Origin: a virus
Direction: 5' to 3' (one strand)
Virus record (IMG/VR): IMGVR_UViG_3300028844_005117
Location: 1 to 64,000 of that record
DNA: 64,000 nucleotides
Shown here: one piece after another, positions 1,360 to 38,530 of the stretch
Layout: each line of letters starts with the position of its first letter
Position numbering within the stretch: the first letter of the stretch is position 1
Program-made: the position numbers and the translations under genes
Notes under the pieces: generated by a model
Told to the model about the DNA's origin: nothing
Databases searched by the model: none
The model's input: only the letters and a program-made list of their open reading frames with translations

Positions 1360-1915
1360 AATTATATTTTTCTTTACAAAATTTCTTGAATTTGAATATT
1401 CTATCCCAAAGTGTCATCTTTTTAAAGTCAGTTATTATATAGTTATCAATACTATACATCCCTTTTACAATCTCTTCATTGTGACTCATTTCTTTCTTTG
1501 TTTCACTAAGTTTATGATTAAGGTCTAATATGTCTTTACAGAGTCTTAGACTATGTCCCTTAAAATCTTTTCTAAGTCCAACAATCTCACGACCATGTTC
1601 ACGTGATAATTCGAGATATCGATGGCGTTCGGTCTGTAATTTATCCTCATATTCTTCACAACTTCTCATGTAAGCATAGTTGTCGATTAGGACTGGCATT
1701 CTATCACCACCCATAAGCATCTTATTAGGTTGCTTAAGTGATATTGGAATCCCATTCTTATTTCCAACTTCTTTAAGTAATTGTCTAGCTTGATTCATAT
1801 TCCCACCAACAACAAAGAAGGGTTTATTATAATGTCTAGCACCCTCTTTTAATAGTGTGGTGTGACCAGCACCTCTAGAGGTCTTTAGATATGTGTATAC
1901 GTGTTCTTTTTTCAT
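1349..1915 (-). CDS. Hypothetical protein with P-loop-like N-terminus
   Basis: The protein is 188 aa. Near the N-terminus 'SRGAGHTTLL' (residues 13-22) looks like a degenerate Walker A (R-G-A-G-x-T-T, lacking the usual Lys), followed by 'FFVVGG' and later 'MPVLIDNYAY', which could be a weak Walker B strand. The middle (about 85-150) is a long charged helix likely to form a coiled coil. I infer a small phage NTPase-like fold, but the missing lysine makes ATP hydrolysis doubtful. It overlaps both neighbours. Confidence 0.6.
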   Translation of the reverse strand: MKKEHVYTYLKTSRGAGHTTLLKEGARHYNKPFFVVGGNMNQARQLLKEVGNKNGIPISLKQPNKMLMGGDRMPVLIDNYAYMRSCEEYEDKLQTERHRYLELSREHGREIVGLRKDFKGHSLRLCKDILDLNHKLSETKKEMSHNEEIVKGMYSIDNYIITDFKKMTLWDRIFKFKKFCKEKYNYES

Positions 1916-2076
1916 AATAATTTATTATAATCATCTGCTAAGATAGCAACATAGGTATCACCCCACCATCCAAATGCACATTCATCAAATACCTTCTCCA
2001 TCTTAAATTCCTTAGAGTTGAAGTTATTAATTTTAATGTATGTTGATTCATTAGGGAATCTTACGTGTATCTCCAT
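1912..2076 (-). CDS. Small hypothetical protein
   Basis: A 54-aa frame runs from ATG 2076-2074, overlapping the upstream stop as TAATG, to TGA at 1914-1912, overlapping the next ATG as ATGA. Perfect coupling on both sides supports it as a real gene. The protein is mixed alpha/beta, with 'FGWWGD' near residue 35 and no recognised family. Confidence 0.65.
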   Translation of the reverse strand: MEIHVRFPNESTYIKINNFNSKEFKMEKVFDECAFGWWGDTYVAILADDYNKLL

Positions 2077-2603
2077 TATCTTCCAATTAAAAGTCTTCTA
2101 CGATTAGTCTTGATACCAATTATTTTAGTTAGTTCCGATAATACTTCCTTATCAATCCCATCAGCAAATTGCTCTGATAACATAGCCGTTAATTCAGCCT
2201 CAGCATCTGTATTAGATACTGTCCAACCATTACGACCAGTACTATTTTCACTGACTTTACGAATGGACCCATCAACACTCGTTAATTTCTTTACATAATC
2301 AGTAACAACTAACATATGACTATGACCAGCGTTACCAACAATCTTTATAATATTCTTATTTGATTCAGTGAATATTACTTTATACCTACTACCAAAAGAA
2401 CCGTTATTATAGTGTTCCAAGGATTCTATAATCTTTTTTATATTTGATGAAATATATAAAAGATTACCACCACCACTATTATATTTCCTATGGATAATAG
2501 CGGATAGTTCATTGATTTTAGTCATCAATGTTTGATTCCATGCAGATTGTGATGGAAAATTACCATTAGGGGGGTTATATGACCAAGTTAAATTACTACG
2601 CAT
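2076..2603 (-). CDS. Capsid-protein-like fragment with swapped segment order
   Basis: This 175-aa protein contains two segments closely similar to the major capsid protein encoded at 36761-38530, in reversed order. Residues about 22-67 ('WNQTLMTKINELSAIIH' and the following Gly-Gly/Ser-Ser strand to 'LEHY') match the capsid segment that follows the 'WDYNGW' region. Residues about 133-160 ('DAEAELTAMLSEQ' through 'EVLSELTKI') match the segment that comes just before it in the capsid protein. It is too short to form a capsomer alone. It ends in a basic tail 'IKTNRRRLLIGR' resembling that of the gene two upstream. Possible roles are an assembly modulator or a decoy for capsid-sensing host defences; neither is shown. 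Confidence 0.8.
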   Translation of the reverse strand: MRSNLTWSYNPPNGNFPSQSAWNQTLMTKINELSAIIHRKYNSGGGNLLYISSNIKKIIESLEHYNNGSFGSRYKVIFTESNKNIIKIVGNAGHSHMLVVTDYVKKLTSVDGSIRKVSENSTGRNGWTVSNTDAEAELTAMLSEQFADGIDKEVLSELTKIIGIKTNRRRLLIGR

Positions 2604-2769
2604 CTCTTAGTTTGTTTAGTAATATATAATTATCGTAAGTAAGTGTCACTTCAACATCCTTAGGTGTACGTCTTGAATGGTGCCACTTGATATCTATTTC
2701 ATCACCATAATATAGAATGTCTTTTAATTTATCCATACATTCACGTTTCACATATATTGTTATCTTCAT
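2596..2769 (-). CDS. Small hypothetical protein
   Basis: A 57-aa frame starts at ATG 2769-2767 (ATGA overlap with the upstream stop) and ends with TAG at 2598-2596, overlapping the next gene by 8 bases. It is rich in Lys, Asp and Tyr with a beta-hairpin-like pattern. The tight packing supports it as real. The function is unknown. Confidence 0.65.
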   Translation of the reverse strand: MKITIYVKRECMDKLKDILYYGDEIDIKWHHSRRTPKDVEVTLTYDNYILLNKLRDA

Positions 2770-3149
2770 AATCCTATTAATAAAAGTTTTCGGTTTGTTT
2801 TAATTTCATCCTTAATTTCATCTTTAGTCATTATAGAATTGTACATGAACTCACTAAGTGGAATTGCCCTACCTCTAAAGCTTCTGATGGGGTTAAAATG
2901 TGTTGGGTCGTAGGTTGTTGGTCCGAAGTATAAGGAATCACCTTGTGGGTAAATAACTATCTTACTAAATGGGTTTCCTTCAATGAATTCCCTAATAGAT
3001 TTTCTATAGGTAAGCATCGGATACGTTTTATTGCTTACTTTTCCATTTTCATCACAATCAATATGTGTATATGTTGGCATGTCTACGACCTCAACCAACG
3101 GCATTTGTTCTAATTGTTCACGTGTATAATCTTCCGTTATTTGACTCAT
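2766..3149 (-). CDS. Hypothetical protein
   Basis: This 127-aa protein is first in the run of overlapping minus-strand genes going down to position 1024, behind a strong host-type promoter at 3168-3198. It is beta-rich and aromatic in the middle. Its last residues, 'EIKTNRKLLLIGL', closely match the tail of the capsid-like fragment two genes downstream although the rest of the two proteins is unrelated. The family is not recognised. Confidence 0.65.
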   Translation of the reverse strand: MSQITEDYTREQLEQMPLVEVVDMPTYTHIDCDENGKVSNKTYPMLTYRKSIREFIEGNPFSKIVIYPQGDSLYFGPTTYDPTHFNPIRSFRGRAIPLSEFMYNSIMTKDEIKDEIKTNRKLLLIGL

Positions 3150-3167
3150 AATTTCTAAATATTAACA

Positions 3168-3198
3168 CAAATATATTATAAAAAACACTACCATGCAA
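3168..3198 (-). promoter_or_regulatory. Host-type promoter (TTG-N20-TATATTTG)
   Basis: Minus strand: TTG at 3198-3196, a 20-base spacer, and TATATTTG at 3175-3168, a full match to the Bacteroidota housekeeping consensus. It lies 18 bases before the ATG at 3149 and should drive the overlapping minus-strand gene run. Confidence 0.75.
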
Positions 3199-7947: not shown

Positions 7948-8502
7948 ATGAAAAAGTTATTATTTGTATTAGCATTAGCACTTACCTTCACTTCTTGTCA
8001 GAAAGAAGATATCCAACCAAACGTAGAGATTGTTGAGGTTGAAGAAACTGGAATTGACTTATATGGTGAATGGAGATTGTTAGACGGTCAAATGTTTATT
8101 GAAAACATGGATACTGGTGTTAACTCTGTATACGACCACTTTAGTCCAACCAAGCCAACATCAAGTCTTAGATATGAAGGAGCACAATTCGAATTCGAAA
8201 CAATCGAAGCTGGTGTTACTACATGGGAGTTTATTGCAGCACCTAATTTAGGTGCCTATGGTGAATTCATCTTAAATGGTGATACAAACGAACCTTACGG
8301 ATTAAATATCACCAATAGTCATTGGACAGTTATGGAACACGCTACTGGCGCATCACAATTAGGTGGGTCATCTAGACCAATATCAGCTGAGGTTGAGAGT
8401 TATGATGATAATATTGTTGTATTCTTAGTACAAGAAGGTAGCACATCGATTGGTGGTTATAACTGTATGTATTATTCAAAATTAAGGTTTCAAAAACAAT
8501 AA
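7948..8502 (+). CDS. Lipocalin-like surface lipoprotein
   Basis: The 184-aa protein has a lipoprotein signal peptide with the lipobox Phe-Thr-Ser-Cys (Cys17). Cys is followed by Gln-Lys-Glu-Asp, which fits the Lys-(Asp/Glu)2 surface-export signal described for Bacteroidota lipoproteins. The mature part opens with 'LYGEWRLLDGQ', a beta-strand start typical of lipocalin-like domains, and continues as alternating strands. It is expected on the outside of the host cell. Together with its host-type promoter this suggests expression during infection to change the host surface, for example superinfection exclusion (inference). Confidence 0.8.
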   Translation: MKKLLFVLALALTFTSCQKEDIQPNVEIVEVEETGIDLYGEWRLLDGQMFIENMDTGVNSVYDHFSPTKPTSSLRYEGAQFEFETIEAGVTTWEFIAAPNLGAYGEFILNGDTNEPYGLNITNSHWTVMEHATGASQLGGSSRPISAEVESYDDNIVVFLVQEGSTSIGGYNCMYYSKLRFQKQ

Positions 8503-8504
8503 GT

Positions 8505-8672
8505 ATGAAATACACTAAAGAACAAAAAGAAAAGGCTGCTTTGAAGGCTGTTGAGATTATGGAAAATGTCAGTATAACATCAACCAAAAGTTCGAGTAGA
8601 CTTCAAAGTAGACTTATTAACGAGTTGTGTCTTCTGTATAAGGAAATTGAATTCCTTAAAGGTATGTTATAA
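8505..8672 (+). CDS. Small helical hypothetical protein
   Basis: A 55-aa frame from ATG 8505, two bases after the lipoprotein stop, to TAA 8672. It is a charged helix, a Ser/Thr-rich turn and a second helix ending 'YKEIEFLKGML', consistent with a small coiled-coil dimer. It is likely co-transcribed with the lipoprotein gene. Confidence 0.55.
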   Translation: MKYTKEQKEKAALKAVEIMENVSITSTKSSSRLQSRLINELCLLYKEIEFLKGML

Positions 8673-8684
8673 AATTTAAATAAT

Positions 8685-8768
8685 ATGAAAGATTTTTGGA
8701 AACCAATAGGAATGTACATAAGTAAATTTGTAAGAAAACCTAAGTACTTAAGAACACCTAAAAAATAG
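8685..8768 (+). CDS. Possible tiny basic peptide
   Basis: A 27-aa frame between two better-supported small genes, with little spacing on either side. It is strongly basic and aromatic. Length alone cannot prove it; collinear packing is the only support. Confidence 0.3.
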   Translation: MKDFWKPIGMYISKFVRKPKYLRTPKK

Positions 8769-8772
8769 AAAT

Positions 8773-8928
8773 ATGAATTTATATAAAATAACATACAACG
8801 GAAATACTCAATACATAGTAGCTAAATCTTATCAAGGTGTTCACGATACATGGCATCTAGTAAAAGACAGATACCAAATAACTAATATTGAATTAGTAGA
8901 AGAAAATATAAAAATTGAGACCACTTAA
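8773..8928 (+). CDS. Small hypothetical protein
   Basis: A 51-aa frame from ATG 8773 to TAA 8928, beginning 'MNLYKITYNGNTQYIVAKS', a beta-hairpin-like pattern common in small phage proteins. It follows the preceding short frames on the same strand. Confidence 0.5.
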   Translation: MNLYKITYNGNTQYIVAKSYQGVHDTWHLVKDRYQITNIELVEENIKIETT

Positions 8929-8944
8929 ATTATTTCTACATTTA

Positions 8945-11974: not shown

Positions 11975-13402
11975 ATGAGTAAATTAGACGTAACCGAAAG
12001 GTTAGCATTTTTAGCGGAAAAGTTTGATGTGTTTGAAACAGATTCAGATGGTAACGCTAATGATAAACGTAATAGTTTACATGAGGAAGGGTGGGAAAAA
12101 ATAAAAATATATGGTGGTCGTGAAAATCACTTGGTGATTGCTGTAGTATCATCAAAACCAAATAAAAGGGGGTTCCCTATTATTAAAGTTAGTGTAGCAT
12201 ATAATGTATTTACGGCTATGGTTGGTGCTGACCCGACACCGAACAAAATTTGTTTACAATGGATGCTTAATACATTCTGTAGAGATTTAAAGGAGGGGTA
12301 TGATGCTGAGGCAAGACGATTTGTTGAAGAGGACTTACCACAAGCTAATGAATACTTAACACTATTCGAGGCGAATAAAAGAAAGAAGAAGTTTAGGGAG
12401 ATGGCTGAATATAGTCTTAAGGGGTTTAAGGACATCACCAACATAAATGAATATAGAAGTTTAAGTCAATTATTTGATGCGGTAGACCCGTTCATTATAA
12501 GAGACCCAAGCGAGATTGAAAGTATAATGAATAGATATGTAAATATGGGACAAGCAACAATACCGTTTAAAGATAGACGATACACGGTATTTGTTCCTAA
12601 AACATTGGATGCTAATGTTATCTTTGATAGGTTTTCAAGTTGGTGTACAGCTAAGGCTGGTAATGGCATGTTTAAAAATTATACTGAGAATTATAGAAAA
12701 CCCAATGGTGATAAAGCAGATATCTACATTGTCATTGATAATGGGTTCTTTGAAGGGTTAAATGAGAATATTTATCAGTTACACTTTGAAACTAGACAGA
12801 TTAAGGATAGGAGTAATAGTATACATAAGAATACTGATTTATATGATGAAGTCTTAACAAGAAGTGTTGGGTTAACAAACTACTTAGGTAGTGAGTTGAT
12901 GGGGATGGCTAAGGATTTTAAAGACGGTGTTGATAGTAACTATTATATTGATATCTTGACTGAGTTTGGGTTTACTGAATCGTTGTTTGAATTCTTTGAT
13001 GAAGAGACACCGATTATAAAGATTGATTCTGGGACTTCAAATAAGAAGCGTAAGGTACCTAAATTACCAGATGTATCTAGATTTAAAGAATTAGAGATGA
13101 TGGTTATTATGGATTCATCATTATCAGTTTTACATCCATCGATTGGGTCATTGAAAAATTTGATGCTTCTTTCGTTGAATGGGAATAAAATAAAGGAATT
13201 ACCAAGTGAATTAGGGAAACTTAAAAACTTAGAGTTTCTTAACTTAGTTGGGAATCCCATTACGGTTATTCCAGAGTCAATTAAGATGTTAGATAAGTCT
13301 AGAGGTGGGAAACTATATAGACTAGCGATAAATAAAAAAGATATTAGTGAGAACAATTATCAAAAATTAGTGGAACTATTACCAAGTGTAAAGTTTAACT
13401 AA
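11975..13402 (+). CDS. Leucine-rich-repeat protein with N-terminal 'WCTA' domain
   Basis: The 475-aa protein has two parts. Residues about 150-300 contain 'FSSWCTAKAGNGMF', a Tyr-rich segment, 'IYIVIDNG' and 'YQLHFETRQIKDR', a set of motifs I associate with a poorly described domain of large phages. Residues about 375-455 form two to three leucine-rich repeats ('LMLLSLNGNKIKELPSELG', 'LEFLNLVGNPITVIPES'). LRRs normally bind proteins, so a role in binding or modifying a host target is plausible. Its host-type promoter and flanking terminators make it a single-gene early unit. No signal peptide, so it should act in the cytoplasm. Confidence 0.75.
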   Translation: MSKLDVTERLAFLAEKFDVFETDSDGNANDKRNSLHEEGWEKIKIYGGRENHLVIAVVSSKPNKRGFPIIKVSVAYNVFTAMVGADPTPNKICLQWMLNTFCRDLKEGYDAEARRFVEEDLPQANEYLTLFEANKRKKKFREMAEYSLKGFKDITNINEYRSLSQLFDAVDPFIIRDPSEIESIMNRYVNMGQATIPFKDRRYTVFVPKTLDANVIFDRFSSWCTAKAGNGMFKNYTENYRKPNGDKADIYIVIDNGFFEGLNENIYQLHFETRQIKDRSNSIHKNTDLYDEVLTRSVGLTNYLGSELMGMAKDFKDGVDSNYYIDILTEFGFTESLFEFFDEETPIIKIDSGTSNKKRKVPKLPDVSRFKELEMMVIMDSSLSVLHPSIGSLKNLMLLSLNGNKIKELPSELGKLKNLEFLNLVGNPITVIPESIKMLDKSRGGKLYRLAINKKDISENNYQKLVELLPSVKFN

Positions 13403-27175: not shown

Positions 27176-28081
27176 ATGGTAAGTATTGATATTACAAAGG
27201 AATACATTAAATGTGTTAATAACCCTCAATATTCTATTGAGAATTATTTTAAGATTTGGAATAACGTGGTAGGTGATTATGTACCGTTTAAGTTGTTATC
27301 AAATCAAAAACTAGTTATAGACGGTTACGAAACAAATAAACTAAATATAGTTAAGAAATATAGACAAGCTGGTATATCATCTATAAGTGAGGCTTATTTG
27401 TCACATAAGGTGGCTTTCAGTGACCCAGACAACCCAGAATTGGTTATGGTGGTATCAAATAAGTTAGATTTGGGTAAACATATGTTAGCTAAGATGAAGA
27501 ACTTTTTATTAACTTTACCTAGATGGGTTTGGGGTTCAGAATACTATGGTTCAGAAGAAAATGAAAGTAAGTCAATTTTTATAGTAGACAATCAAGTAGA
27601 AGCTGTATTACCAAATGGTTCTATGATTAAGGTCACCTCATCCAGACCAGATGCATTCAGAGGGTGGGCACCAACATATATATTAATGGATGAGGCAGCA
27701 TTTATTGATAAGAACGATGAGTTATTTATGGCTACTTATGCTTCACTAGCTGTTGGTTGTAGGTTGATTATGGTTTCAACCCCTAATGGTATGGATGGAT
27801 TATTCCATAAAACTTTCATGGGTGTTGTTTGCGGTCAAAATAATTTCAATTTAATTGAATTGAACTGGTGGGATGATGAACGATTCAATAAAGACCTTAA
27901 ATGGGTTATTGAAATAGATGGTAAAATAATCGACACCTTAATTGGGGTTTTACCAGAATATTATGATAAAGTAATACTTGCTGGTTATAAACCAACAAAT
28001 GAATGGTATGAAAAAATGCGAATAATGCTTAATTATAACGAAAAACAACTCCAACAAGAGATGGGTGGGTTTGTGATTTAG
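27176..28081 (+). CDS. Terminase large-subunit paralogue, ATPase domain only
   Basis: The 301-aa protein aligns along its whole length with the first ~305 residues of the full TerL that follows: 'YVPFKL', a Walker-A-like 'KYRQAGISS' (60-68), 'SNKLDLGKHML', 'LPRWVWGSEYYGSEEN', Walker B 'YILMDEAAF' and 'STPNGMDGLF'. It stops where the nuclease domain would begin. The motifs are conserved rather than decayed, so it may be a working ATPase or a regulator of the packaging motor. It has its own late-type promoter and sits 40 bases before terL. Confidence 0.85.
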   Translation: MVSIDITKEYIKCVNNPQYSIENYFKIWNNVVGDYVPFKLLSNQKLVIDGYETNKLNIVKKYRQAGISSISEAYLSHKVAFSDPDNPELVMVVSNKLDLGKHMLAKMKNFLLTLPRWVWGSEYYGSEENESKSIFIVDNQVEAVLPNGSMIKVTSSRPDAFRGWAPTYILMDEAAFIDKNDELFMATYASLAVGCRLIMVSTPNGMDGLFHKTFMGVVCGQNNFNLIELNWWDDERFNKDLKWVIEIDGKIIDTLIGVLPEYYDKVILAGYKPTNEWYEKMRIMLNYNEKQLQQEMGGFVI

Positions 28082-28121: not shown

Positions 28122-29936
28122 ATGTTAACAAGAGCCGAAATATATAGTGAGTATGCCAATTGTTTGAAGGACCCAATCTATGCTATCGAAAACTTTTTAG
28201 AAACTTTCGATAAGACACAGGAAGGGTATGTACCATTCAAATTATTCCCAAGGCAAAGGCAGATTGTTAACGCTTATGAGAAACATAGATATAATTTAGT
28301 TACCAAGCCAAGGCAAGCTGGTATATCTACCACTACACAAGCTTATATGGCGGTTAAAGCTGGTTTTGCTGATAAGGATAACCCAGAGGTTATACTTGTA
28401 ATTGCAAATAAGCTTAAATTATCACAAAAATTTTTAAAGGGTATTAAGGATTATCTAAAGCAATTACCAAGATGGATATGGGGTTCTGATTATTATGGTA
28501 CTGAAGAAAACGAAAGAAAATCAATCTTCGTTGTTGATTCTAAGATAGAAATCGAATTACCTAATGGTTCACAAGTTATTGCCGTTGCGACATCGGAAGA
28601 TGCACTTCGTGGATATACACCAACATATCTTGTATTTGATGAGGCAGCCTTCATTGATAATGGTGACGCTGTATATGCAGCTGCCATGTCATCAATATCT
28701 ACTGGTGGTAATGTGATTCTAATTTCCACACCAAACGGTATGGACCCACTTTACTATAAAACATACGAACAATCTAAATCTGGTGATAATAATTACCATA
28801 TTGTTGAAATGCGTTGGTTTGAAGACCCACGATACAATAAAGACCTTAGATGGTACAAGAAAGTTGAGGGTGATGATAATGATGATATTGTAGAGAAGGA
28901 AGTTGAGTTTAATCTTGAATCTTATCTTAAGAGAATTGAAGATGATTGGAAACCAACATCAACATGGTATGAGAACATGTGTATGGCACTTAATAATAAT
29001 TCTAGAAAGATTGCACAGGAGTTAGATGTATCATTCTTAGGTTCTGGTGGTAACGTTATTGAAGATGAGACCATTGAAATGCACGATAAGAAAAATGTTC
29101 GTGACCCTAAATTCGTTGAGGGTGTTGAACAAGAGTTTTGGATATGGGAAGAACCTATAGTGGACCATAAATATATTATGGGTGTCGATGTATCAAGAGG
29201 TGATGGTGAAGATAGTTCAACAATAGTTATCATTGATTTTACAACCATGGAACAAGTAATGGAGTATCAAGGTAAAGTACAACCAGATATACTAGCTCAA
29301 TATGTATATGATTACGGTAATATGTACAACGCATACACTGTTGTCGATATTACAGGTGGTATGGGTGTCTCAACGGTACTTAAGTTGATTGAATTGGATT
29401 ATAGTAAGAAACTATTACATCATGATAAACAAGCAATGGGTAAGGTTTTAGCTAACCAATCTAGATTAGGTTTGGTTAAGGAGAATGAAAAGGTGCCAGG
29501 TTTCAACGCCAATGGAGTTCGTCTTCCAATGATTTCAAACATGGAAAAGGTATTAAGAGAGAACTTCGTTAAGATTAGGTCAAGAAGAATGGTTTCAGAA
29601 ATGAAAACATTTATATATAAGAATGGTAGACCAGACCACATGGATGGTTACCACGATGACCTTCTTATGTCATTGGGTATGGCTATGTGGGTTCTTGAAT
29701 ATTCATTTAAAAACCTTAAGAAAGCTACGGCTCAAAATAAAGCGATACTTAACAGTTGGACCACTGGTGGTCAGAATGTTGAGGAAATCAATAATAAAAG
29801 TTACGATGGTGGATTTGTATCTAAGGATAACAAGGGTAAGAAAACTGCTCCTAGACCAAGATTTAATCCTAACGTATCAAACAACATGCAAGACCCTAAC
29901 GGGGACTACATGTGGTTATTTAGTGGAACAAAATAA
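28122..29936 (+). CDS. terL: Terminase large subunit (gp17-like)
   Basis: The 604-aa DNA-packaging motor has an N-terminal ATPase with a variant Walker A 'KPRQAGIST' (62-70, Ile in place of Lys) and Walker B 'LVFDEAA' (170-176), then 'STPNGMDPLYYK'. The C-terminal RNase H-like nuclease has Asp356 in 'GVDVSRGDGEDSS', Asp409 in 'TVVDITGGMG' and late acids in 'MDGYHDDLLMSLGMA'. The length matches T4 gp17 (about 610 aa). It translocates DNA into the prohead and cuts concatemers. The short paralogue lies upstream and the portal gene follows after one small gene. No small terminase was recognised. Confidence 0.95.
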   Translation: MLTRAEIYSEYANCLKDPIYAIENFLETFDKTQEGYVPFKLFPRQRQIVNAYEKHRYNLVTKPRQAGISTTTQAYMAVKAGFADKDNPEVILVIANKLKLSQKFLKGIKDYLKQLPRWIWGSDYYGTEENERKSIFVVDSKIEIELPNGSQVIAVATSEDALRGYTPTYLVFDEAAFIDNGDAVYAAAMSSISTGGNVILISTPNGMDPLYYKTYEQSKSGDNNYHIVEMRWFEDPRYNKDLRWYKKVEGDDNDDIVEKEVEFNLESYLKRIEDDWKPTSTWYENMCMALNNNSRKIAQELDVSFLGSGGNVIEDETIEMHDKKNVRDPKFVEGVEQEFWIWEEPIVDHKYIMGVDVSRGDGEDSSTIVIIDFTTMEQVMEYQGKVQPDILAQYVYDYGNMYNAYTVVDITGGMGVSTVLKLIELDYSKKLLHHDKQAMGKVLANQSRLGLVKENEKVPGFNANGVRLPMISNMEKVLRENFVKIRSRRMVSEMKTFIYKNGRPDHMDGYHDDLLMSLGMAMWVLEYSFKNLKKATAQNKAILNSWTTGGQNVEEINNKSYDGGFVSKDNKGKKTAPRPRFNPNVSNNMQDPNGDYMWLFSGTK

Positions 29937-36760: not shown

Positions 36761-38530
36761 ATGTCAAATTCACAATTATTAAATTCTGGGCAAATTGGAA
36801 ACATCGGATTAAACCACATGAAGGCTATCCGTCAACAAACCCAACAAAAGTGGAACTCTTTAGGATTCTTAGAAGGTCTTAAAGGTCATGTTAAGGAGAA
36901 CATCGCTCAGTTATATGAGAACGAAGCTTCTTACCTATTAAACGAAGCTACTTCTGCGGCTGATTCATCTGGTTCTTTCGAGACAGTTGTATTCCCAATC
37001 GTAAGAAGAGTATTCTCTAAGTTGTTAGCAAACGATATCGTTTCTGTACAAGCAATGAACATGCCTATCGGTAAATTGTTCTTCTTCGTACCTCAAACGT
37101 CTTCAAGAGTTGATTCAACTGGTGCGGCTGGTAACGTACATTCTGATGCAGTATTCTCTGCACATACAGGAATGGGTGACCAACTTCCAGATTGCGTTAA
37201 CGCTTTATGTACTGTAACTCAGTATGAAGCTAAGAACTTATACGATATCTATTATAATGATGGATTATTCGATAACTCTAAAGGAACTGCTACTATTACT
37301 ATAATGGATGCTATTCCTGTAGCAATGGACTCAAACGGAGAATTCTCTGAAAACGGTTCACCAGCTGCATCTACTGATGGTTCATACAGAAATGTTATGT
37401 TAAGAATCTCTGGATTCTCTTCAACTAATAAAGGTAGATTAACTGGACCAGATGGTAATGAAATGGACACGGAAGGATTCCTTGCGTCTCTTAAAGTTAC
37501 TTCTGCATTGCCACTTACTGACCCAGATGGTAACGTTATCGTTCCAGCTGCTGGTGAGGTACCATTTAGATTAGTTACTCAAAAGTATGGTAAAGGAATC
37601 GTTACTTATGACGATATCTGTGACGCTGCTGGTGAGTTATATATAGAATTAGATATGAGTCACCCAGTTGCACAAGGTGGTACTGCTACATTCGACGGTT
37701 ACGTTGGGTCTACAGCATCTACTTATGCTTCTACAGCGTTTGACGCTTCATGGGCAACTTATGCTAGTCTTGAATTAGAAACAGAAATGGGAGAGGTATC
37801 TTTCAAACTTGATGAAGTTGTTGTTTCAGTTGAAGAAAGAAAATTAAGAGCTACATGGTCTCCAGAATTAGCGCAAGATGTTAGTGCATTCCACAACATT
37901 GATGCTGAGGCTGAATTAACGGCTATGTTATCAGAGCAAGTTGCTGCTGAGATTGATAGAGAAATCTTGAGAGACCTTAGAAAAGCTGCTGCTTGGACTC
38001 TTAGATGGGATTATAATGGATGGAGAAAGACTTCTCAAGCGTCTAACGCTTACACACAGAAGGATTGGAACCAAACTTTAATCACTAAAGTTAACCAATT
38101 ATCAGCGCAAATTCACAAAGCGACATTAAGAGGTGGTGCAAACTACATCGTTGTTTCTTCTGAAATCTCTGCTGTATTCAATGATTTGGAGTACTTCCAC
38201 GTAAGTGATGCTTCTCCAGAGCAAGACCAATATAACATGGGTATCGAAAGAATCGGTTCTCTTGGTGGTAGATTCCAAGTATACGCTGACCCGTATTCTC
38301 CATGGTACTCTATGATTATCGGTCATAAAGGAAAGTCACTTCTTGACACAGGGTATATCTATGCTCCATATGTGCCATTACAATTGACACCTACAATGTA
38401 TAACCCGTTCAACTTCGCTCCAGTGAAGGGTATTATGACTCGTTATGCTAAGAAAGTGGTAAACAACAGATTCTACGGACACGTAAGATGTGATGGTGTT
38501 CCTCACTTTAACATTGATGAATTAAGATAG
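36761..38530 (+). CDS. Major capsid protein (gp23-like)
   Basis: The 589-aa protein matches the T4 gp23 type. It has a scaffold-like N-terminus with a likely gp21 cut site at 'LLNE' (Glu62) before Ala63, close to T4's Glu65. 'VVFPIVRRVFSKLLANDIVS' and 'AMNMPIGKLFFF' (about 76-110) begin the HK97-like core. 'DAEAELTAMLSEQ' (about 383-395) and 'DWNQTLITKVNQLSAQIHK' (about 427-445) are the helical spine and following segment copied in the gene at 2076-2603. 'YAPYVPLQLTPTMYNPFNF' lies near the C-terminus. Many copies form the hexamers of the head. It is followed by a terminator. Confidence 0.97.
   Translation: MSNSQLLNSGQIGNIGLNHMKAIRQQTQQKWNSLGFLEGLKGHVKENIAQLYENEASYLLNEATSAADSSGSFETVVFPIVRRVFSKLLANDIVSVQAMNMPIGKLFFFVPQTSSRVDSTGAAGNVHSDAVFSAHTGMGDQLPDCVNALCTVTQYEAKNLYDIYYNDGLFDNSKGTATITIMDAIPVAMDSNGEFSENGSPAASTDGSYRNVMLRISGFSSTNKGRLTGPDGNEMDTEGFLASLKVTSALPLTDPDGNVIVPAAGEVPFRLVTQKYGKGIVTYDDICDAAGELYIELDMSHPVAQGGTATFDGYVGSTASTYASTAFDASWATYASLELETEMGEVSFKLDEVVVSVEERKLRATWSPELAQDVSAFHNIDAEAELTAMLSEQVAAEIDREILRDLRKAAAWTLRWDYNGWRKTSQASNAYTQKDWNQTLITKVNQLSAQIHKATLRGGANYIVVSSEISAVFNDLEYFHVSDASPEQDQYNMGIERIGSLGGRFQVYADPYSPWYSMIIGHKGKSLLDTGYIYAPYVPLQLTPTMYNPFNFAPVKGIMTRYAKKVVNNRFYGHVRCDGVPHFNIDELR

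Follow-up and report, generated by a model that had tools for sequence, protein, structure and literature searches.

A small phage gene joining two capsid-protein segments in swapped order, possibly an early mimic of the major capsid protein

Phage capsid proteins are sensed by bacterial defences, bound by the proteins of satellites, and found with their fold elements reordered. The major capsid protein (MCP) is a direct trigger of both CapRel (PMC9712102) and Thoeris (PMC11312562), and satellites use capsid-binding proteins against phages (PLE of Vibrio, Rcm of SaPI; PMC10945586, PMC12409344). The MCP of Bordetella phage BPP-1 has a permuted and complete HK97 fold, in N-beta-alpha order, in which the spine is kept in the N-terminal element (PMC3863775). 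Bacterial immunity is set off directly by capsid protein time and again, and we did not find phage imitators of it described; searches of the open-licence literature gave no equivalent report of small proteins made from shuffled capsid segments, of capsid mimics or of decoys.

We analysed a small gene in a 64,000-nt stretch of viral DNA (positions 1 to 64,000 of IMG/VR record IMGVR_UViG_3300028844_005117; the window), in which a sequence-only reading had seen two capsid segments in the opposite order to that of the MCP. We confirmed that the gene has an intact frame with an ATG start (Table 1), and a segment-by-segment alignment bore out the swap: in two-sequence BLASTP, residues 5-104 of the small protein matched MCP residues 414-533, the A-domain (E 8e-14, 32% identity), and residues 131-160 matched MCP residues 379-408, part of the spine (E 1e-9, 70% identity), such that the A-domain precedes the spine, the reverse of the MCP order. 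These E-values rule out chance similarity, and the Pfam Gp23 model (PF07068) scored just above its cut-off (25.2 bits versus 24.4). Nor is the similarity confined to one short motif, which that reading had named as a possible objection, since the A-domain match spans the whole domain (about 100 residues) and extends beyond the 17-residue motif. Both segments are thus homologous to the T4 gp23 family (Pfam PF07068, PHROG 138). Unlike gp23, however, the small protein has no N-arm, E-loop, insertion domain or C-terminal strands, is swapped, and is encoded outside the head module; in place of the complete HK97 order (N-arm, E-loop, spine, A-domain, C-terminal strands) it consists of A-domain and spine only, and from what is known of the HK97 fold it would probably be unable to form a shell alone. 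It shares with the BPP-1 MCP a natural reordering of HK97-fold elements, but its topology differs, since its spine is C-terminal and it lacks the rest of the N-element along with most of the fold.

Table 1. Positions of the small gene, its segments, its operon and the MCP gene in the window.
Feature	Position	Strand	Details
Small gene, A-domain and spine segment in swapped order	2076..2603	-	175 aa; ORF list, BLASTP, Pfam
A-domain homologue (aa 5-104; MCP counterpart aa 414-533)	2292..2591	-	BLASTP, structure model
Spine-helix homologue (aa 131-160; MCP counterpart aa 379-408)	2124..2213	-	BLASTP
Basic C-terminal tail, aa 161-175	2079..2123	-	resembles tail of 2766-3149 gene (IKTNRKLLLIG)
Tract of 68 nt	2140..2207	-	90% identical to MCP gene 37901-37968; 2169-2207 identical over 39 nt
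Downstream neighbour	1912..2076	-	its start overlaps small-gene stop by 1 nt
Upstream neighbour	2596..2769	-	overlaps small-gene start by 8 nt
First operon gene	2766..3149	-	function unassigned
Bacteroidota-type promoter-like motif of the small-gene operon	3168..3198	-	TTG-N20-TATATTTG
Major capsid protein (MCP) gene	36761..38530	+	gp23 type, PF07068
MCP spine segment, aa 379-408	37895..37984	+	donor or partner of copied tract
MCP A-domain, aa 414-533	38000..38359	+	

Structure prediction of the small protein alone, which the sequence-only reading had suggested, agreed with the homology. The model is reliable for approximately residues 6-100 only (residues 102-175 are unreliable, with pLDDT <50), and in this A-domain part the order of strands and helices is that of the MCP A-domain. 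T4 gp23 was the best match of this part in both Foldseek and VIA-align, the latter aligning residues 1-103 with it at Z 11.6 (101 residues, 2.5 A). Two further proteins aligned with it. The T4 vertex protein gp24 (PDB 1yue) is also a phage protein of capsid fold and its A-domain aligned at Z 9.3, but gp24 is a full-length capsid fold with a structural role. The uncharacterised 94-residue protein PF0899 of Pyrococcus furiosus (PDB 2pk8) is likewise small and free-standing (Z 9.1, 80 of 94 residues), but it is archaeal, has 8% identity and no spine segment, and is similar in fold only. The spine of the MCP is modelled as a single long helix (residues 368-409), at low confidence over part of its length, and the second segment of the small protein corresponds to the middle of this helix.

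The two segments proved to differ in age. We compared codons at residues identical between the small gene and its own MCP gene, with the expected agreement derived from the phage's own codon usage. In the A-domain, 13 codons matched versus 13.2 expected; in the spine, 18 of 21 matched versus 10.3 expected (P 3e-4). Synonymous sites in the A-domain are thus saturated and yet its residues are retained, which argues for long-term selection on the protein. The spine, in contrast, contains the sole inverted repeat of at least 24 nt in the window, and the 39 nt of identity within it have a sharp 5' border; MCP genes of other phages have 27-33 of these 39 nt. Two peptide motifs fit the same division, in that the A-domain has WNQTLMTKIN, the version in most other phages' MCPs (the phage's own has WNQTLITKVN), while TAMLSEQ in the spine is peculiar to the phage's own MCP among the MCPs compared. 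We conclude from codon ages and motifs that an old A-domain carries a spine tract that the phage's own MCP gene has recently supplied or converted, and we infer that the copying ran from the MCP gene to the small gene. A simple circular permutation of the phage's own MCP is ruled out by this difference in age, and a single assembly misjoin at the 39-nt repeat is unlikely, because the sequences flanking the tract on either side differ from the MCP gene. The earlier statement that both segments are well kept therefore holds for the spine, at the protein and DNA levels alike, but not for the A-domain, with its 32% identity to the phage's own MCP. Similarly, the suggestion that recombination left a remnant is partly right for the spine, as a recent copy.

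We considered that the identity might matter at the level of DNA, with the 39-nt tract acting as a recombination partner or a nuclease decoy site for the MCP gene. Its length, its sharp 5' border and its uniqueness as an inverted repeat of that length in the window are what such an element would show. Nevertheless, we regard this as highly improbable, since the tract lies in frame and in the sense direction inside an MCP-homologous gene, and since the corresponding fragments of other phages are codon-saturated, such that DNA identity is not kept there.

A second alternative is that the gene is debris, that is, fragments of MCP genes acquired through illegitimate recombination, open by chance and functionless. 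The spine tract, as a recent short copy, is what one would expect of debris; however, this copy landed in frame in the sole gene that was already homologous to the MCP, and the saturated A-domain codons with their retained residues argue against a functionless origin. Occurrence in other phages bears on this alternative in both directions. No homologue with the A-domain-then-spine order emerged from our searches, and occurrence is patchy, as debris would be. On the other hand, A-domain genes occur in five phages, the window included, with intact frames. Thus, when we asked, as the sequence-only reading had, whether the permuted order is kept elsewhere, this order was not found, but other swapped or split MCP pieces and free A-domains were.

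The four other phages with the A-domain as a short separate gene are L004/L005 (161 aa), L045 (160 aa), L196 (149 aa) and L197 (124 aa). We define a free-standing A-domain gene here as an ORF of 124-175 aa outside the head module, mostly with a shortened loop before the GGR motif, and the small gene of the window is one. The window, L004, L045 and L197 genes have little of the MCP loop that precedes GGR, and the L196 gene keeps a longer one. The four genes outside the window lie in non-structural neighbourhoods; the L004/L005 gene, for example, is flanked by SSB-like and UvsX-like genes (as read from translations). The L045 gene is on a 187-kb contig without a recognisable MCP. The window, L004 and L045 genes grouped in a tree that did not include L196 and L197, with weak support (75/56). 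On the L197 contig a second MCP piece (MCP 71-112) lies 10 kb away. For dN/dS, no close relatives were found in viral_contigs or phages, and genome_contigs gave one distant match. Among isolate phages, some of whose records are unannotated, the A-domain and G035a queries matched capsid genes only, and nothing matched the G012 query. We also note that contig L042 (IMGVR_UViG_3300028829_004530), whose MCP is nearly the same as the window's, comes from an almost identical phage and ends short of the small-gene region; that L045 encodes at 8153-8944 a protein with many repeats of the VEDTLNCKVLST / VEETLNIKVDST type; and that L196 has at 405-2194, near its A-domain gene, an RNA-ligase-like gene apparently split by an intein-like insert.

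To survey MCP pieces more broadly, we ran a profile built from 33 MCPs over 36 further MCP-bearing phage contigs, which are incomplete and were selected for carrying an MCP. Small ORFs with MCP pieces were found in 5/36 of these incomplete contigs (G035, G012, G016, G004 and G002), with none seen in the other 31, and the matched parts held no internal stops. A 184-aa ORF of G035 joins MCP spine residues 354-422 to residues 73-116, making it a second swapped-order protein, and G035 also has an N-arm ORF of 57 aa. The 71-aa gene adjoining the 184-aa one (the two genes together at L332 3048-3814) contains a weak C-terminal piece. The pieces in G012, G016 and G004 are from the N-arm, with G004 additionally ending in a spine-like stretch, and the G002 piece is the MCP C-terminus. 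Most are at a considerable distance from the MCP gene, with the G012 piece approximately 7 kb off, on the other strand. Beyond their MCP-like parts, G012 and G016 are homologous (37% over 133 aa), as are G035a and G041n. Wherever a fragment could be set against the MCP of its own phage, it was codon-saturated, except for the window spine tract. In G023, a 67-aa spine-like ORF was suggestive only (14 of approximately 20,000 shuffles scored as high, and it reached 0.8 bits with the full MCP profile). A 317-aa ORF of the same contig (L188 16737-17693) has short stretches like the MCP C-terminus and, after them, a pre-spine motif (LLTWSPEMAQDVSG), again a swapped order but with a weak E-value (0.03), and this two-motif sequence match is only a lead.

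Control proteins yielded almost no such fragments. A portal profile, in this case a general Pfam model, gave none in 40 records apart from one weak match in a 680-aa frame, and a second structural protein gave none. For the terminase there was one case, in the window itself, where a 301-aa ORF (27176-28081, +) forms a tandem N-terminal copy. It shares 43% identity with residues 1-300 of the large subunit encoded just downstream (28122-29936). MCP fragments were thus found in 6/37 cases versus 1/100 for the pooled controls (Fisher p 0.0016). In the window, the only partial paralogues were the small gene and the MCP, the terminase copy, and a single weakly similar pair of genes of neighbouring type. 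The terminase copy is a point in favour of debris, but the controls and this paralogue survey disfavour general gene debris, and the MCP-piece matches are without internal stops and largely MCP-specific. Given intact recurring MCP pieces and controls near zero, we consider neutral debris unlikely.

The genomic setting distinguishes the small gene from the head genes. It lies 34 kb from the MCP gene on the opposite strand, outside the late head module, in a tight minus-strand operon in which it overlaps its neighbours by 8 nt and 1 nt; one YopX-like gene is the only neighbour recognised. As the sequence-only reading had it, this is a separate small gene behind a host-type promoter motif some 570 bases upstream: the TTG-N20-TATATTTG motif, which resembles Bacteroidota promoters and is of early type, sits 565 bp upstream. 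The late-type motif TATTTATA precedes the protease-scaffold-MCP block and is absent upstream of the small-gene operon. Followed by A-rich sequence, TATTTATA recurs just before gene starts (e.g. 30190, 32300, 34342 (+), 42226, 4941 (-)), and in this phage group it is likely a late promoter. Flavobacterium and Rhodothermus phages are among the cultured phages whose MCPs come nearest to these, and thus a Bacteroidota host is likely, as judged from sequence.

This setting bears on whether the product is a minor head component, one that its MCP-like parts would bring into the prohead, to act inside the head or as an injected protein. The N-arm pieces in G012, G016 and G004 could be head-targeting signals, and the C-terminal tail of the small protein is basic. 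However, the window protein has no N-arm and its gene is in an early-type position, and we think this role very unlikely.

Alternatively, the protein might modulate assembly or act as a dominant negative, with its A-domain and spine binding the MCP or scaffold to delay, cap or poison capsomer assembly, either in its own phage before the late genes are on or in a competing phage with a related capsid. The protein keeps both the spine and the A-domain, which in HK97-fold shells is located at the capsomer centre, and in WNQTLMTKIN it has the motif seen in other phages' MCPs, not the one in its own phage's MCP. If so, it would resemble PLE and SaPI Rcm in acting on phage capsid protein, although these are satellite-encoded and are not reported there as made of capsid-protein segments (PMC10945586, PMC12409344). 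Against such a role, the gene lies away from the head genes without a late-type motif, and its occurrence is patchy, with segments that vary between phages, unlike a conserved assembly factor. We consider assembly modulation, or the poisoning of rival phages, to be somewhat unlikely, although among the alternatives it ranks first, ahead of debris. Early-type position, patchiness and differing segments per phage fit competition for a variable partner better than a conserved assembly role.

We tentatively favour, at less than even confidence, the explanation that the small gene is a real, maintained phage gene encoding an early capsid mimic, which would compete with free MCP for a binding partner, most plausibly a host capsid sensor. 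An old free-standing A-domain would recently have gained its spine segment as a copy of the phage's own MCP gene, perhaps renewed through gene conversion. The protein would be made early, before the real MCP appears late, and would stand in for capsid protein, forming no shell and yet showing the surfaces of unassembled MCP. It could then compete for whatever binds free MCP, and a host defence sensor recognising capsid protein is the likeliest such partner. We put a decoy for a capsid sensor first because the MCP directly triggers CapRel and Thoeris, although a decoy that binds the sensor might activate it instead.

More broadly, the sequences hint that large gp23-type phages have a loosely defined class of small proteins composed of capsid segments, whose genes mostly lie apart from the head genes. 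It is possible, although we would not yet call it probable, that such phages, probably of Bacteroidota, carry a recurring, selected class of shuffled-MCP small proteins, mostly away from head genes and sometimes refreshed from the capsid gene, that serve as mimics against capsid-sensing defences or rival phages. If the class is real, its members would be candidate capsid decoys or assembly modulators open to direct testing, and parts of the HK97 fold would be able to exist in shuffled order as genes of their own. Such genes would probably be labelled by routine annotation as hypothetical or truncated capsid protein, and the pattern would be overlooked. Elsewhere in the window, we noted a 475-aa leucine-rich-repeat protein (11975-13402, +), encoded here in a phage genome.
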